Shown one piece after another: positions 35,775 to 42,758 of a stretch of DNA of 64,000 nt; within the stretch, counting starts at the first letter, position 1, and every line of letters begins with the position of its first letter. The stretch comes from Arthrobacter alpinus (GTDB lineage Bacteria; Actinomycetota; Actinomycetes; Actinomycetales; Micrococcaceae): positions 2,542,001 to 2,606,000 of the forward strand of contig NZ_FNTV01000001.1 of NCBI RefSeq assembly GCF_900105965.1. The letters run 5' to 3'. The notes below the pieces were generated by a model that saw only the letters and a list, made by a program, of their open reading frames with translations, did not search any database and had not been told where the DNA came from. The translations under genes and the position numbers were made by a program.

Positions 35775-37672
35775 GCCGCAGGGACAAGCGCACGGCAGAT
35801 CCGGCGTCGAACATTCGAGGCAGGAAGAATCCCAAAAAGGCGGCGCCCCAGGGGACCGCGGATGAGGATCGCGTGGACCTGAGCCGCGCGGACAGCCGGG
35901 CTGTGCGGCGGCGTTCGGTGAGGTTGCTCGGGACTCTGCTGCGTCCGGTGCGGGTACGTTTTGCCATCACGGTGGCGCTGGTGGTTCTCTCGCAGGCGGC
36001 AAAGGTGGCCGGTCCGTTGCTGATTGCCTACGGAATCGACACCGCCCTGCCAGCACTCACGGCGAATTCCGGCGCCAATCCCCTGCCCCTCATTGTTACT
36101 GGTGGCGGCTACATTCTTGCCGCGGTGGCCTCGGCTTGGCTGACATCGGCGTACCTGACGGCCACGGCGCGGCTTAGCCAGGCCATGCTGCTGGACCTGC
36201 GCATCCAGGTCTTCCGGCACACGCAGCGGCTAAGCATGGAATTTCATGAAAGTTACACCTCGGGGCGCATTATTTCGCGGCAGACCTCAGACCTGGAGGC
36301 CCTGCGCGAACTGCTGGATTCAGGCATCTCTTCGCTGGCGTCCGGACTGGTTTTTATGGCGTTGACGGCCGTGTCCATTTTCTCGCTCGACTGGATCACC
36401 GGCTTGCTGGTGCTTGCCACGGCCGTACCCATGCTGATGCTCTCGCGCTGGTACCAAAAGCGTTCCCAGGCCGCTTACCGATCCTCGCGTGTGGTTTCGG
36501 CCGGGTTGATTGTGCACTTTGTTGAGACCATGACGGGCATCCGTGCCGTCAAGGCGTTCCGGCGAGAGGAGGCGAATGCCGCCCGTTATGAGGAACTGGC
36601 CGAGGACTACCGCCGCGTCACTGTCCGTTCCATCAACCTCAACGGCGTTTTCCAGCCCGGTTTGGTGCTCATTGGAAATGTGGCAGTGGCCGTGGTGCTG
36701 TTGGCAGGCGGCTTCCGCGTGCTCGGCGGGGCGCTGGAAGTGGGCGCCCTTCTGGCGCTGCTGCTGGCGACCAAACGCTTCTTCCAGCCCGTGGGCCAGA
36801 TGGCCATGTTCTACAACTCCTTCCAGTCAGCGCAGGCCGCCTTGGAGAAAGTCTCAGGTTTGTTGGAGGAGGTGCCCACGGTTCGGCCACCGCGCCATCC
36901 TGTCCCGCTGCCAACGGCAAACGGTGAGATCCGATTCACCGGCGCCGAGTTCCATTACGGCAGCGGTCCTCTGGTGCTGCCGCGGCTGGATCTGCATATT
37001 CCCGCTGGTCAGACGGTTGCCGTGGTGGGTGCAACGGGTGCCGGAAAATCGACCCTGGCCAAGCTCATGTCGCGTTTCTATGACGTCACGGCCGGATCGT
37101 TAAAGCTCGACGGCGTGGAGTTGCGCGATCTTTCCAGCGCCGACCTTCGCCGTGCCGTTGTTATGGTGACGCAGGAGGCGTTCCTGTTCAGCGGGACGGT
37201 GGCCGAGAACATTGCGTTGGGCAACCCCGGCGCCACCCGCGAACAGATTGAGGCTGCCGCCCGCGATGTGGGAGCCGACGAATTCATCAGGGCCCTGCCC
37301 GACGGCTATGACACGGATGTCAACAAACGCGGCGGCAGGGTCTCCGCCGGACAGCGGCAGTTGATCTCCTTTGCCCGCGCCTTCCTGGCCAATCCGGCCG
37401 TGCTGATCCTGGACGAGGCCACCTCCTCACTGGACATCCCCTCCGAACGCCTGGTGCAAATCGGATTGCAGAAACTTCTGGGCGCACAAGGCGCCGCCAC
37501 GGGACGGACCGCTTTGATCATTGCGCACCGGCTTTCCACGGTGGCCATGGCGGACCGCGTGTTGGTGGTTCACGAGGGCCAGATTGTGGAAGACGGCTCC
37601 CCTGCCGAGCTGATTTCCGATGGCGGCCGCTTCGCCAAGCTGCACGGTGCGTGGCAGGACTCGCTCGTTTAA
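35771..37672 (+). CDS. ABC exporter half-transporter (catalytic subunit)
   Basis: A 633-residue partner of the preceding gene. An unusually basic N-terminal tail (about 45 residues, [10 protein letters not shown]) precedes six membrane segments. The ATPase has Walker [10 protein letters not shown], Walker [12 protein letters not shown] with the catalytic glutamate, but its signature reads VSAGQRQ rather than LSGGQ. With the partner's intact signature and defective Walker B, this gives one working and one degenerate ATP site, as known for heterodimeric exporters. Confidence 0.9.
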
Positions 37673-37744
37673 TGATGCTGTTCGCCTCGGCACTCGCGCC
37701 GGTAGGCTGAAACTGTCCACCTATTCGGCTGTCGCGGCAGGGGC

Positions 37745-38542
37745 ATGACAATGGTAACTTTTCGTGAACTTCACTCCTCCGGCACACCTTTGGTGCTGCC
37801 CAATGCCTGGGATGTGGGCTCGGCCCTGGCCTTTGTGGCGGCGGGCTACCCCGCCCTCGGAACCACCAGTTTTGGCATCTCCTCCAGTGCGGGAATGCCC
37901 GACGGCGGCCGGTCAGGCAGGGCGGCAACGCTCGCCTTGGCCGCGAAGTTGTGCCGGCTGCCCGTCCACGTCACGGTCGACTTCGAGGACGGCTACAGCG
38001 ACGATCCTGTTGAGGTTGCGGAGTCCGTGGCCCAGCTGGCGGCGCTGGGCGTGGCCGGAATCAACCTTGAGGACAGCCTGTCAGGGCAACTGGTGGAGCC
38101 ACTGGCCATGGCCGCCAAGGTCGCAGCTGTCAAGGAGCGCAATCCTGGGATTTTCATCAACGCCCGGGTCGACAACTTTTGGTTTGCCGAGCAGGCGACG
38201 CCGGAAGCGGTTGTGGCCCGTGCCCGGATGTACGCGGATGCGGGGGCTGAGGGGATCTTTGTCCCCGGTGTTGCGGCGGCGGCGGACATCCGCAGCATTG
38301 CGGCAGGAATTGGGCTGCCGCTGAATGTTTTGGCGCACCCCTCGCTGACTGTGGCGCAGCTGGGGCAGCTGGGTGTCAGCCGGGTTAGCTCGGGCTCCCT
38401 GCCCTACCGCGCAGCGATCGATGCAGCCGTTAGTGCCGCCGATTCACTGCGTAACGGCTCCCAGACGCCGGCCGCCACGTCTTATTGGGATATGCAGGCC
38501 CGCCTCGTGGCTTTCGAGCAGGGAACTACTCCCACGCAATAA
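37745..38542 (+). CDS. Isocitrate lyase/PEP mutase superfamily protein
   Basis: A 265-residue protein of the isocitrate lyase/PEP mutase superfamily, which makes or breaks C-C or P-C bonds next to a carboxylate. Visible motifs are LPNAWDVGSA, the metal-binding DFEDGY, and INLEDSL. The cysteine-containing KKCGH loop of true isocitrate lyase is absent, so it belongs to the uncharacterised subgroup. AGGGG precedes the ATG. Its last 17 bp overlap tail-to-tail with the reverse transcriptase gene. Confidence 0.87.
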   Translation: MTMVTFRELHSSGTPLVLPNAWDVGSALAFVAAGYPALGTTSFGISSSAGMPDGGRSGRAATLALAAKLCRLPVHVTVDFEDGYSDDPVEVAESVAQLAALGVAGINLEDSLSGQLVEPLAMAAKVAAVKERNPGIFINARVDNFWFAEQATPEAVVARARMYADAGAEGIFVPGVAAAADIRSIAAGIGLPLNVLAHPSLTVAQLGQLGVSRVSSGSLPYRAAIDAAVSAADSLRNGSQTPAATSYWDMQARLVAFEQGTTPTQ

Positions 38543-39914
38543 GGTGAAAGTCGCGCAGGAGTTTGGCGCCCCGGTCAGGGTTGAGCGCCGTGACCCAGGA
38601 AATTCGACCTAGGAGTTGGGCGCGGAAATCAGCGTGAGCCTCCCGGTTTTGTGACTCGGGTCCGTGCCGGAGGCAATTGTGGAGGGTGGCCTTGAGCCGG
38701 TCGAAGTCCAGACGGTTGATATTGGTGCGTTGATTGACCACCACCGAGGTCACCACCTGACGCACGGCGGCAGGACGTACCCTCGATTTGAGCTTGTTGA
38801 CGCCATGCCCCTCGTTCTCAATGATGCCCGTGGCCGTCCGCATGAAGGCATCCGCTCGCCTCGCCAATTCCCTGCCACCGCTAAAGGTGAGGTCATCGGC
38901 GTATCTGGTGTATCCGGCGTCGAAGGTGTCCGCGAGTCCGGCCAGACGGGAATCCAGCTTGCGCAGGGCCAGGTTTGCCAGCACGGGTGAGGACGGTGCG
39001 CCTTGGGGAAGATGTGGTTGTGAGAGTGCCCGGCGCAGGGCAAAGCGTTGATCGGCATCACCGCCGGGCGGCATCTGGGCGAGTATTCGTGGTGGCACAA
39101 CGTGGGTGCAAATACCTGTTAAGCGGTGCGCCACGGACTCCGTGAATCCAGCTTGCCGCAGGGTGCCGAAGACCCGACCGGCGGTGACCTTGGCGAAGAA
39201 CGTGGTCAGATCCAGATTGACCACCACCTCCTTGCCGGTGTGGCGTGCCGCGCCGGTCACCACGCTTCGCCCTGGCACAAATCCGTGCGCAGCGTCGTGC
39301 AATTCAAGCGGATAAAGCAGCTCCGTAAGGACAGTGCGTTGAACATTGCGCAGGCGTAGACCAGGTATTTCCAGGAGGCGCGGCAGCCGGCCGGGACGCG
39401 CACGCCACACGTAGCGGTAATGCTGTAATTTTCGCGCGGCCGTCCGGTTCCAATGCTGTGGATCGGAGAACCAGTCCAACTCTCCAAGCGTGAGGTGTAG
39501 TTTGTCGGCGAGAGCGGCCAAGGTGTCGATCCGTGGCACCCTCGCCTGCCTGTTCTCACGGGCCGTGGCTGGTGCAAGGGCATAGCTGGACAAGCGGATC
39601 GGCTTGTACTGGCTCGCAGCCTTGGCAACGGCATCGACGAAGGGCTCGGACGCCAGAATCGTGGCAGTGAGCTCGCGCGGGGCATCCACCGGAGGACGGG
39701 GATAGCTCAGCAGCACGTGGGCGGCAAGCGGCCCCAGCCAACGCCGTCGCGCTCCCAAAACCTGCGCCCCTGCCACAGTCATCTCCGGCTTGGACCACTG
39801 CGGGGAGTTAAGAAAGGCCTGCGCCAAGGTCGCCGCAATGGCCGACGTCGAGGGGCGGGGTTTGCGCTTGAGGGTCGCGGATGCGGGTGTCACTTGGGTG
39901 GTCTCAGTGGTCAT
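38526..39914 (-). CDS. Retron-type reverse transcriptase
   Basis: A 462-residue reverse transcriptase. The catalytic core has Asp235 (VVNLDLTTFF), LPQGAPSSP at 302-310 and YADD at 338-341 (YTRYADDLTFSG). The HGFVPGRS segment at 210-217 and the following GAARH (221-225) lie where retron RTs carry NAxxH, and VTS at 388-390 (RQVVTSVVVN) where they carry VTG. About 180 residues precede the RT core, a long extension like that of Myxococcus retron RTs. ATG 39914 lies 3 bases after the second inverted repeat of the adjacent RNA. The frame is open to 40094, but that part is the RNA itself. No effector gene is recognisable beside it. Confidence 0.88.
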   Translation of the reverse strand: MTTETTQVTPASATLKRKPRPSTSAIAATLAQAFLNSPQWSKPEMTVAGAQVLGARRRWLGPLAAHVLLSYPRPPVDAPRELTATILASEPFVDAVAKAASQYKPIRLSSYALAPATARENRQARVPRIDTLAALADKLHLTLGELDWFSDPQHWNRTAARKLQHYRYVWRARPGRLPRLLEIPGLRLRNVQRTVLTELLYPLELHDAAHGFVPGRSVVTGAARHTGKEVVVNLDLTTFFAKVTAGRVFGTLRQAGFTESVAHRLTGICTHVVPPRILAQMPPGGDADQRFALRRALSQPHLPQGAPSSPVLANLALRKLDSRLAGLADTFDAGYTRYADDLTFSGGRELARRADAFMRTATGIIENEGHGVNKLKSRVRPAAVRQVVTSVVVNQRTNINRLDFDRLKATLHNCLRHGPESQNREAHADFRAQLLGRISWVTALNPDRGAKLLRDFHLIAWE

Positions 39915-40280
39915 GGCTGCGATGGTTTCTTCGATGACCTGGCGCTCTGTCCGGGTGCCCAGCTGCGCGGAGCGCAGCGCCGCACCCGAGGTGCTTCGAT
40001 CAGGCAATACTGCGTACCCCGGGGTAGCCCCGGGGAGGGAGGCGCGCCAAAAGCCGCTTCCCGCCTCATCGAAGAAACCATCGCATGGTGCCATGCTAAC
40101 CGACGCCGCGGCGGTGACCTCGGAGCCACAAAGAGAACCTTGGACCTGTTGTGTTCCAGCCCGTGGACTTTGCGGTGTGCCGGGAATAGATCAACAGCAG
40201 AAGCTAATTATCAATGGTGGTACCGCAACTTCCGTGCAACACTGCGGCGGAATGAACCAGCGGTGCCTTCGAAGGAAGCA
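39915..40280. other. Gap between retron RT and MFS genes
   Basis: The 366-bp gap holds the retron RNA (39918-40085) and then about 195 bp leading to the divergent MFS gene. A ribosome site GAAGGAAG at 40271-40278 serves the MFS gene. Long open frames cross the gap on both strands, but their residues have no conserved pattern and I take them as non-coding. Confidence 0.6.
39918..40085 (-). ncRNA. Probable retron msr-msd RNA
   Basis: On the minus strand, directly before the reverse transcriptase gene, a perfect 20-bp inverted repeat (a1 40066-40085, a2 39918-39937) bounds 128 bases of structured sequence. After a1 comes a G (40065), the expected branching base. Within are a possible stem 40039-40044/40062-40067, a hairpin 40017-40035 (CCCCGGGG twice around TAG) and a long msd-like hairpin 39952-39988 with a 7-bp outer stem, a 3x3 internal loop and a 7-bp inner stem. 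The order a1, short hairpins, long hairpin, a2, RT gene is the retron layout. A TAGCAT element at 40093-40098 would start transcription next to a1. Confidence 0.78.
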
Positions 40281-41726
40281 ATGCGCAAAGCTAGATCCGT
40301 CACCGTCGACCAGCGGTCATGGCCCCTCATTGCCGTCTTGGCAATCACCGGCGCGTGTGCGTCCTTCATGTTCACCCTCGTGGTGCCGATTCAGGCCCAG
40401 CTTCCTGAGTTACTAAATTCCTCTAGGCAGGCAACTGCCTGGGTTGTGACCATCACCTTGCTGACCTCGGCCGTGGCCACACCCATTTCCGGCAGGTTGG
40501 GCGATCTTTTTGGCAAGCGCAAGGTCATTATTTTGCTGCTGATCGCCTTGATTGTCGGCAACATTCTGGCGGCTGCCTCCACCGGGTTGACCATGCTGCT
40601 GGTGGGCCGGGCCCTGCAGGGTCTGATGACAGGCGTCATTCCCCTGGGCATTGCCGTTCTCAGGGACCAGTTGCCCGCCAAGCGCATTGGTGGTGCCGTG
40701 GCCTTGATCAGCGGTTCGTTCGGGTTTGGGTCCGCGCTGGGGCTCCCCATCAGCGCCTTTATTGCCGAAACCATGAACTGGAACGCACTGTTCTGGACCG
40801 CCGCGGTCCTGGGGCTGGCATTGTTGGTCCTCGTGGCCCGGATCGTACCGAAGGATACGGTTTTCGCTACCGGTGGCTTTGACTACGTTGGCGCCGTTGG
40901 CCTGTCGATCGGTTTGTCCGGCATTATCGTTGCGATTGCTCAGGGCAATGCTTGGGGGTGGACCTCACCGGGCACTCTGGCTTTCGGCTGCGGCGGCATT
41001 GCTGTGCTCCTGGCGTGGGGTGCTTTTGAACTGCGCCTGAAGGATCCGGTGGTTGATCTGCGGGTGGCGGCACGTCCCACCGTCCTCATGACAAATCTGG
41101 CGTCGATAGCTCTTGGTTTCGCTTTCTTCTCTTCTGCTGTGCTGTTTCCGCAAATTCTTCAACTTCCTGTCAGCACGGAAGTTGGCCTGGGCATGTCCCT
41201 GATGGCAATCGGCTTCATCCTTGCCCCGGCCGGTTTGGTGCAGATCGCCATGGCACCGGTGGCCGCCCGGCTCAACCGCACTGTTGGCGGGCGTGCCACT
41301 TTGGTGACCAGCGCCGTAGTTATTTCCTTCGCTTACGTCTTGGCGTTGCTGGGCGCCACGGAACTTTGGCAAATCCTGGTTGCCAATGCACTGGTTGGGG
41401 CTGGGATCGGCATTGGCTATGCCTCAATGCCGATGCTGATCATGGGGGCCGTCGATTCCACCGAAACAGGTGCAGCCAATGGATTGAACTCGCTGATGCG
41501 TGCCCTGGGCACGGGTAGTGCGGCCGCCGTCATGGGCGCCATTCTCGCGGCGTCCAGCGCCGGCACTTCGGCCCCCACGGCGGCTGGCTTCCAGTTGGGG
41601 TTCGTCATAGCTCTCGGCGCCACAGTGGCCGCCGGAGTGCTTGCCTTGTTCATTCCAAAACCGCGGCCCGTACACGCAGTGGTCATCGATGTGTCGGCAG
41701 GGATGGCGGATGAGTCGCGTCGCTGA
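40281..41726 (+). CDS. MFS transporter, probable drug:H+ antiporter (DHA2-like)
   Basis: A 481-residue transporter with 12-14 membrane segments. The MFS loop GRLGDLFGKRK follows the second helix and the antiporter-type stretch VGRALQGLMTGVIPLGIAVLRD follows. Its length and the middle pair of extra helices suggest the 14-helix DHA2 group that exports drugs or metabolites. ATG 40281 has GAAGGAAG upstream; the frame is open much further back over the retron RNA, which I reject. It diverges from the reverse transcriptase gene. Confidence 0.87.
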   Translation: MRKARSVTVDQRSWPLIAVLAITGACASFMFTLVVPIQAQLPELLNSSRQATAWVVTITLLTSAVATPISGRLGDLFGKRKVIILLLIALIVGNILAAASTGLTMLLVGRALQGLMTGVIPLGIAVLRDQLPAKRIGGAVALISGSFGFGSALGLPISAFIAETMNWNALFWTAAVLGLALLVLVARIVPKDTVFATGGFDYVGAVGLSIGLSGIIVAIAQGNAWGWTSPGTLAFGCGGIAVLLAWGAFELRLKDPVVDLRVAARPTVLMTNLASIALGFAFFSSAVLFPQILQLPVSTEVGLGMSLMAIGFILAPAGLVQIAMAPVAARLNRTVGGRATLVTSAVVISFAYVLALLGATELWQILVANALVGAGIGIGYASMPMLIMGAVDSTETGAANGLNSLMRALGTGSAAAVMGAILAASSAGTSAPTAAGFQLGFVIALGATVAAGVLALFIPKPRPVHAVVIDVSAGMADESRR

Positions 41727-41864
41727 GCCCGGCGCCTTCACATGGCTCATGAAGTGACCTGAACACCGCCACGTCAGCTATCCTCTTCAGGTATGCCACG
41801 CGGAAAAGCATGACTTCCACCCGCGATTCCACTTCCCAACGAACCGCGAAGAGCCAACTTTCCC

Positions 41865-42758
41865 ATGGACGCCTCACGCCTGCCGCACTATGCAAAGACG
41901 CCCGGCAGCCAGGCTTCTCGGGTTCTGGGCCACACCAGCCCGTGCTTGGCTCGGGAACCAAAGCTGCCGAGGAAAACACGGCGCCCCAAAGTTGTTGTTC
42001 CGCTATTGGCACTACTTGCCGTGATGGCTCTTACGGCGTGCGACCAGACGATCCAGTCCGCCCGTCAACCCGATCAAGGGCAGATGGGAAGTTGCCACGC
42101 CCTCATGTTTTCCGAAGAGTTCGACGCAACCAGTGATTCCCGCCCTGCCGTCCCCTGCACGGAACCGCACACCACCGAAACGTTCTCCACCAGCACGGTA
42201 ACCGGAGCCTTGACCGAAGGAATCTGGGCCACACGGAGACCCAACCAGCAACAACTCAACGCACTCACGGATCAGCTATGCGGTGGAGATGCTGTCCGAA
42301 GTTACCTCAACGCCGGTGAACGTGATGCCTGGATTGGTCTTGACGTTCGCGCTTACTTTCCCACTCCACAGGCGTGGTCCGAGGGCGACAGAAGCGTTCG
42401 CTGTGATCTGGTCGCCAACCGGGCCAAGGGAGTCGCCGCTGCCCCGCAGCTGAACCACTCCCTACGCGGCATCATGGCCACCCCGGACGCTGCCCAGCTT
42501 CGTCAATGCTTCATGGCCGGGGCTCAGCCCGAACAACAAGATACCGTGTGCAGCGAGCCGCACACGGCCATCTCGGTCAACGCGTGGTTGAGTGTTACGA
42601 CGCCGGATCCCGCACCCGAGCTTGTCCAGGACCTGTGTGAACCGTTCGTCCTCCAGTACGCCAACGACCACAATCTGCCCCTTGGCGCAGTGACTGGCCT
42701 GACGACCGGCAGCCAGGAAACATGGACTCTCAAATGTGCCATGGAGGACCACCTATGA
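41865..42758 (+). CDS. Septum-formation-family lipoprotein
   Basis: A 297-residue secreted lipoprotein. After a long basic N-terminus comes a hydrophobic stretch and lipobox LTACDQ. Two similar halves follow, each with cysteine and HT patterns (GSCHALMF, CTEPHTTETFS; LRQCFMAG, CSEPHTAISVNA), the layout of the Septum_form domain of actinobacteria. The function of this family is not established. It overlaps the next gene by 4 bp (ATGA), so the two are probably one unit. Confidence 0.8.
   Translation: MDASRLPHYAKTPGSQASRVLGHTSPCLAREPKLPRKTRRPKVVVPLLALLAVMALTACDQTIQSARQPDQGQMGSCHALMFSEEFDATSDSRPAVPCTEPHTTETFSTSTVTGALTEGIWATRRPNQQQLNALTDQLCGGDAVRSYLNAGERDAWIGLDVRAYFPTPQAWSEGDRSVRCDLVANRAKGVAAAPQLNHSLRGIMATPDAAQLRQCFMAGAQPEQQDTVCSEPHTAISVNAWLSVTTPDPAPELVQDLCEPFVLQYANDHNLPLGAVTGLTTGSQETWTLKCAMEDHL

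Follow-up and report, generated by a model that had tools for sequence, protein, structure and literature searches.

The window analysed here, a stretch of 64,000 nt from Arthrobacter alpinus, carries on its minus strand, from 40085 to 38526, an inverted repeat around 128 nt followed by a reverse transcriptase (RT) gene (Table 1). Judged from its sequence and that of its relatives, the locus is a genuine retron, and we strongly infer that it makes msDNA. A solitary, chromosomal retron is very probably the best explanation, the following mechanism included. A single transcript, placed by position, would begin at a1, about 7 nt downstream of a -10 box, with a1-msr-msd-a2 ahead of the RT. The a1 and a2 arms would pair and, by analogy with known retrons, the RT would bind the msr hairpins, prime from the 2′-OH of G40065 and reverse-transcribe the msd, giving a DNA hairpin some 65-70 nt long. 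The weakest step of this scheme concerns function: most likely the particle would act against phages or sense stress, with an effector that lies outside the cassette, in trans, or is built into the RT.

Anatomy of the locus and conservation of its RNA

The original prediction had described a perfect 20-bp inverted repeat enclosing 128 bases, three hairpins of which the last and longest lies beside a2, and a G right after a1, and all of these features are borne out. The arms are complementary at 20/20 positions and form the longest perfect inverted repeat of the window among those with a spacer of 60-260 nt (runner-up, 14 bp); dinucleotide shuffles of the window (n = 40) gave no inverted repeat longer than 14 bp. 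Both the RNA fold of 39905-40100 (z = -6.67, with equally good folds in 0/200 shuffles) and the consensus structure contain the three hairpins, and G40065 is the same base in 47/47 aligned RNAs.

The a2 arm ends 3 nt before an ATG at 39914, which is taken as the RT start (462 aa) because the start called mechanically (ATG 40094, 522 aa) lies upstream of a1 and overlaps the probable -10 box. Counter to the short start, the nearest database protein among the matches listed (96% identical, also from Arthrobacter alpinus) is recorded with 522 aa, that is, with the long start. A start codon is present -14 to 73 nt from the a2 end in 44/51 loci (median 12), a tally showing only that such a start exists, since the script favoured starts near a2; the other 7/51 include two copies of an N-truncated RT. 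Upstream of a1, the motif TANNNT, which we take to be the -10 box of actinobacteria, occurs within the 28 nt just before the arm in 40/46 loci, compared with 5/414 control intervals further upstream, and at -28 to -31 from the GAG anchor in 35/46 (46 of the 47 aligned loci, L059 omitted). The TAGCAT of the present locus is therefore a probable -10 promoter box, and its position places the transcript start at a1; a sigma-70 consensus scan called no promoter at this box.

The RNA was compared across relatives by picking, for each of 60 loci with an RT homologue, the strongest repeat upstream of that gene. Seven loci were omitted by choice, two that repeat other rows (L001, L060) and five in which the repeat is weak, absent or doubtful (L007, L036, L056, L057, L058), and with 6 duplicates removed 47 RNAs remained; the outer RNA boundaries of L006, L027, L028, L033, L034, L046 and L047 were shifted by hand. 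Alignment A1 holds 26 RNAs, mostly from the same family, and A2 all 47, from family to class. Changes on both sides of a pair occur in 28/50 pairs of A1 and 32/40 of A2, such that the repeat and hairpins are kept through compensatory changes in the 47 aligned relatives, and the order a1-msr-msd-a2-RT claimed for the locus is conserved with strong covariation. The A2 structure has 95.2% of its cells paired, a state that 0/500 shuffles equalled on any of five measures, and sliding it by 1-3 columns leaves only 36.2-51.8% paired; of these controls the shuffles ignore relatedness and the slid structures allow for it. The base helix of the msd (40001-40005 with 39937-39941) is in the A1 consensus and absent from the wider A2 consensus, and the predicted RT-DNA, folded as DNA, is not unusually stable (z = -1.24; 27/200 shuffles as stable).

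As picking the strongest repeat biases towards a1/a2 pairing, a covariance model (R1) was built. It finds one strong match in the window, at 158 bits (next, 13.6), and matches loci outside its sources, namely L145, L148/L149 (one place), L056, L057, L058 and a locus of Burkholderia cenocepacia (L142), where the match of 51 bits ends 9 nt before the RT start as taken. A strong sense match was obtained in 38/38 contexts with the RT, 36 of whose RNAs served as sources of the model or duplicate one that did, with only L100 and L101 outside; at corresponding sites without an intact retron or RT, 0/10 stretches had such a match. An RT-blind search of the genus found the RNA in 18/23 genomes, exactly those in which the RT occurs, although with 120 first-look candidates scored per genome its absences are no proof. 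The matches outside the sources and the RT-blind search offset the picking bias, and pairing of a1 with a2 in the RNA is supported by the covariation. No R1 match exceeded 15 bits next to RTs belonging to other clades (L143, L150-L163). No match was found in L007 and L036 at E up to 1; there (L007:8001-8939 and L036) similarity to the RT begins only at about residue 150, without the RNA, and the sequence is probably a decaying copy. The genome of the window contains a second match (30 bits, 60 nt, E 0.0017), which is taken as chance. An Rfam scan of the window gave no match at gathering cut-offs, at E up to 5 the interval 38000-41000 had only two matches, both at chance level and to families other than retrons, and Rfam 15 holds no RNA of this retron clade.

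Table 1. Features of the retron locus, in window coordinates.
Feature	Coordinates	Strand	Basis
Probable -10 promoter box TAGCAT	40093..40098	-	TANNNT counts over loci; 7 nt to a1
a1, 5′ arm of the 20-bp inverted repeat	40066..40085	-	20/20 complementarity, alignment, consensus structure
Predicted priming (branch) guanosine	40065..40065	-	Invariant in 47/47 RNAs; role by analogy with known retrons
msr stem-loop 1	40037..40062	-	Consensus structure; helix 3, 89.6% of cells paired
msr stem-loop 2 (CCGGGGNTACCCCGG), most conserved hairpin of the msr	40017..40035	-	Helix 4, 97.3% of cells paired
Predicted msd template, RT-DNA of ~68 nt	39938..40005	-	A1 consensus and DNA fold; both DNA ends predicted
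msd hairpin, conserved tip CTGCGCTCCGCGCAG	39951..39989	-	Helices 5 and 6, double-sided changes in 12/13 pairs
a2, 3′ arm of the inverted repeat	39918..39937	-	20/20 complementarity, alignment, consensus structure
Retron reverse transcriptase, 462 aa	38526..39914	-	RVT_1; PADLOC RT_other 574 bits; tree
RT N-terminal extension, residues 1 to ~115	39570..39914	-	No Pfam domain; class-level alignment from ~residue 23
Region X motif GAARH (NAXXH variant)	39240..39254	-	H225 invariant in 64 A3 rows
YADD catalytic motif	38892..38903	-	RT sequence and alignment
Region Y triplet VTS	38745..38753	-	Consensus of relatives is VTG

The reverse transcriptase and its kin

The RT gene is the only RVT_1 match in its 4.62-Mb genome, and its product contains the two motifs by which it was first recognised, LPQGAPSSP (residues 302-310) and YADD (residues 338-341). 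Among PADLOC models the protein matches RT_other (PDLC02949) with 574 bits over residues 4-462, RT_outgroup with 536 bits and RT_XIII with 282 bits, the last without the model's first ~100 positions; no NCBIfam model exceeds its cut-off, with group_II_RT_mat at 50 bits vs a cut-off of 300. Two protein database searches, each scoring 8000 candidates, yielded 5004 and 7921 matches, of which 120 were listed from each; the remaining matches will include other retron RTs as well. The alignment and profile A3 comprise 64 rows selected from the loci and the 120 listed database proteins. In region X, position 221 is G in 52/64 rows and N in 2/64, A222 is kept in 62/64 and H225 in 64/64; in region Y, position 390 is G in 58/64 rows and S, as in the window, in 6/64. 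The G for N in region X and the S for G in region Y weigh against the retron reading. Region X, region Y and branch-site motifs of retrons are described in the available portion of PMC6868368, where substitutions of the N in NAXXH are reported for the proven retrons Ec48 and Mx65. Values of dN/dS of 0.1-0.4 in 6/6 pairs, the N-terminal part included and with dS >1 in two pairs, show that the RT is under purifying selection.

Neither of the two results that the original prediction had named as fatal to the retron call, relatives lacking the repeat or an RT of group II intron or DGR kinship, was obtained. The RT groups with retron RTs and not with group II introns or DGR enzymes by tree, PADLOC and PDB profile alike. 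A group II intron or DGR enzyme standing beside a chance repeat would account for the weak similarity shared across RT domains, but the best PDB match of the A3 profile is the Ec86 RT at 178 bits, with retron RTs ranking best down to Eco8 at 66 bits, whereas group II-type RTs do not exceed 56 bits. The tree comprises 30 RTs, without a 44-aa fragment (L163) and the interrupted L151, and only three of its outside RTs have a retron name on record; it separates the clade, with Burkholderia in it, from the remaining RTs at 99.4/98, and the two group II RTs and one DGR RT split off at 98.6/100. This identity is contradicted by the tree, the PDB profile and the conserved repeat, and can be given next to no credence. 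The RNA also lies directly before the start codon, as it would if it were a cis-regulatory leader hairpin of a non-retron RT; against this reading, which is very improbable, stand the retron-like character of the RT in PADLOC, PDB profile and tree, the invariant G after a1 and the covarying a1-msr-msd-a2 layout.

Ahead of its RT domain the window RT carries an extension of ~115 aa in which only W40 and P75 are invariant and conservation is 2.25-2.65 bits per position vs 3.07 in the RT domain. No Pfam model exceeds its cut-off there, a search at E up to 10 giving one sub-threshold match in 4 proteins, and the N-terminal part of the A3 profile has one insignificant match in the PDB (best E 0.11). 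The extension is presumably a component of the msDNA-RT particle and not an enzyme in its own right.

Bounds, surroundings and distribution of the unit

Next to the retron in the window stands a convergent PEP mutase gene, whose ORF overlaps that of the RT by 17 bp at their 3′ ends (38526-38542); an MFS transporter and two ABC transporters are encoded in the neighbourhood as well. PADLOC gave no match for nine neighbouring ORFs of the window, a set that leaves the two ABC transporter ORFs outside. Clustering of neighbours in 40 contexts and the window found no shared partner gene, with 11/41 giving no RT row where greedy ORF calling set an opposite ORF over the RT; tblastx of the 4-kb flanks of the same 41 contexts, with the many short matches between GC-rich flanks taken as noise, found no universal partner and sharing within small subgroups only. 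Flanking genes vary between lineages and are common only to small subgroups. The linked or fused effector gene that is the hallmark of the tripartite types I-XIII was not found here, with no shared neighbour and RT_XIII at only 282 bits, and the element looks solitary.

One comparison of sites allows the unit to be delimited. At the nrdF site, a genome with the retron (G016, L075) has ~1.7 kb where another (G013) has ~25 bp, and this DNA consists of ~85 nt from the stop codon of the upstream gene to a1, the RNA, the RT and ~25 nt after it. A third genome (G022; L184, reverse strand near 2018-1657) keeps at this site the last ~77 RT codons and, by eye, a scrap around a1, and therefore the element was once present there and has decayed, with no other gene in the unit. 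By this alignment, the single site comparison bounds the unit to ~1.7 kb of putative promoter region, RNA and RT; the site in G013 is either an empty site or a clean loss. A site at moxR could not be bounded cleanly, as several kb beyond the retron differ there too. Matches to the flanking PEP mutase occur in 19/23 genomes of the genus and to the MFS protein in 22/23, paralogues included, and since the two are adjacent in no listed genome but the own, no empty counterpart of the window's exact site was found.

The RT is present in 18/23 genomes of the genus, one RT each (E 1e-40; own genome and 22 congeneric), in 23/245 genomes and 5/32 genera of a family sample (E 1e-40), and in 14/396 genomes of an order sample, 14/394 of a class sample and, with a different query, 5/396 of a phylum sample (each at E 1e-30); all four wider samples contain the genome studied here, together with some others that had been counted before. 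Burkholderia cenocepacia (L142:5500-7026) has an RNA of this family and an RT of this clade, and many close RTs occur in Burkholderia and Paraburkholderia. A phage collection gave 11 RT matches, all below 60% identity and none covering 80%, and no near match to the DNA of 36000-42000; a plasmid collection gave 260 matched records, one of them covering at least 80% of the query. An Arthrobacter-like retron also occurs in a record titled Vibrio cholerae strain 35D (L005, WNZI01000030.1), which has 68% GC over 17 kb and looks mislabelled or contaminated.

Possible roles and relation to known retrons

Known retrons typically guard a linked effector, and a defence role is a guess here because no effector was found. 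The effector may act in trans, may reside in the N-terminus or may be dispensed with; we favour one of the first two options and regard defence as the likeliest role. The N-terminal extension could itself be the effector, the RT-msDNA complex restraining its own N-terminal domain and freeing it on infection, as in a single-gene retron. Its alignability to class level, the purifying selection on it, the failure to find a partner gene nearby and the bounding of the unit at one site to promoter region, RNA and RT all favour such an arrangement, which we consider possible though rather unlikely: the extension has neither a Pfam domain over cut-off nor a significant PDB match, it has only two invariant residues and is less conserved than the RT domain, and the accessible part of PMC6868368 records myxobacterial retron RTs that also have extended N-termini of unknown function. 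A wider and equally tentative proposal, doubtful as it stands, is a self-contained, single-protein retron class of Actinomycetota and Burkholderiales, made up of one promoter, one RNA and one RT, in which the N-terminal extension would replace the effector or make one unnecessary, and which would be a near-standard chromosomal gene in the genus. A house-keeping, non-defence role would agree with one RT in each of so many congeneric genomes, with sites common within subgroups and with the nine neighbouring ORFs devoid of PADLOC matches. Its absence from 5/23 genomes, its decay in G022 and its occurrence in no more than 23/245 genomes of the family sample argue against this role, which is unlikely; the patchy occurrence fits a dispensable function.

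Most knowledge of retrons comes from proteobacterial systems that include a toxic partner gene. The solitary retron described here belongs to a large clade in Actinomycetota and Burkholderiales that combines a well-supported RNA and a probable promoter with no visible partner, which raises the question of whether a linked effector is needed by a retron, and the clade is a source of RNA-RT pairs of GC-rich bacteria that could be used to make DNA in cells. The suggestion that it may be new is only partly borne out, since the RT clade is already in PADLOC and has many database homologues; the RNA is absent from Rfam. RT_other and RT_outgroup (PDLC03740), the best matches of the window RT and of 8/8 distant relatives tested, are RT models without a named effector, and the RNA of the clade has no counterpart in Rfam 15. 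Literature searches, with Mestre et al. 2020 and Khan et al. 2024 outside their scope, found no paper on this retron clade, and no description of the RNA was found in the available text of PMC6868368, PMC8934634, PMC12548924, PMC12262390, PMC11124354 and PMC13405049. The expectation that retrons of this lineage are poorly described fits the literature found, in which earlier surveys noted putative retrons in Actinobacteria (PMC6868368, in part). Compared by PADLOC names and by the portions of published descriptions at hand, the clade is known at the RT level, and the locus, a new member of it, shows neither a fused nor an adjacent effector such as the numbered types have.

Among individual systems, Ec86 (Eco1) has the closest solved RT by sequence and shares LPQGAPSSP and YADD with the window RT, but its RT, of 320 residues, is without the N-terminal extension. 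Ec86 is tripartite, with linked effectors. Ec107 is a separate PADLOC model that the window RT matches with only 156 bits; as outlined in the accessible sections of PMC6868368, it is intergenic and without signs of mobility, like the present retron. The same sections describe the RTs of the myxobacterial Mx162, Mx65, Sa163 and Ne144 as extended at the N-terminus, a likeness to the window RT by description (PMC6868368). Mx65 also deviates from NAXXH at the N and has GAGC at its branch site. Mx162 has an msd of 162 nt as against the ~68 nt predicted here (PMC6868368, as far as available). According to the same partial source, msDNA was present in 27/28 tested strains of myxobacteria and vertical inheritance is supposed for Mx162 and Sa163; the myxobacterial retrons are thus, like the present retron, common in their own lineage (PMC6868368).
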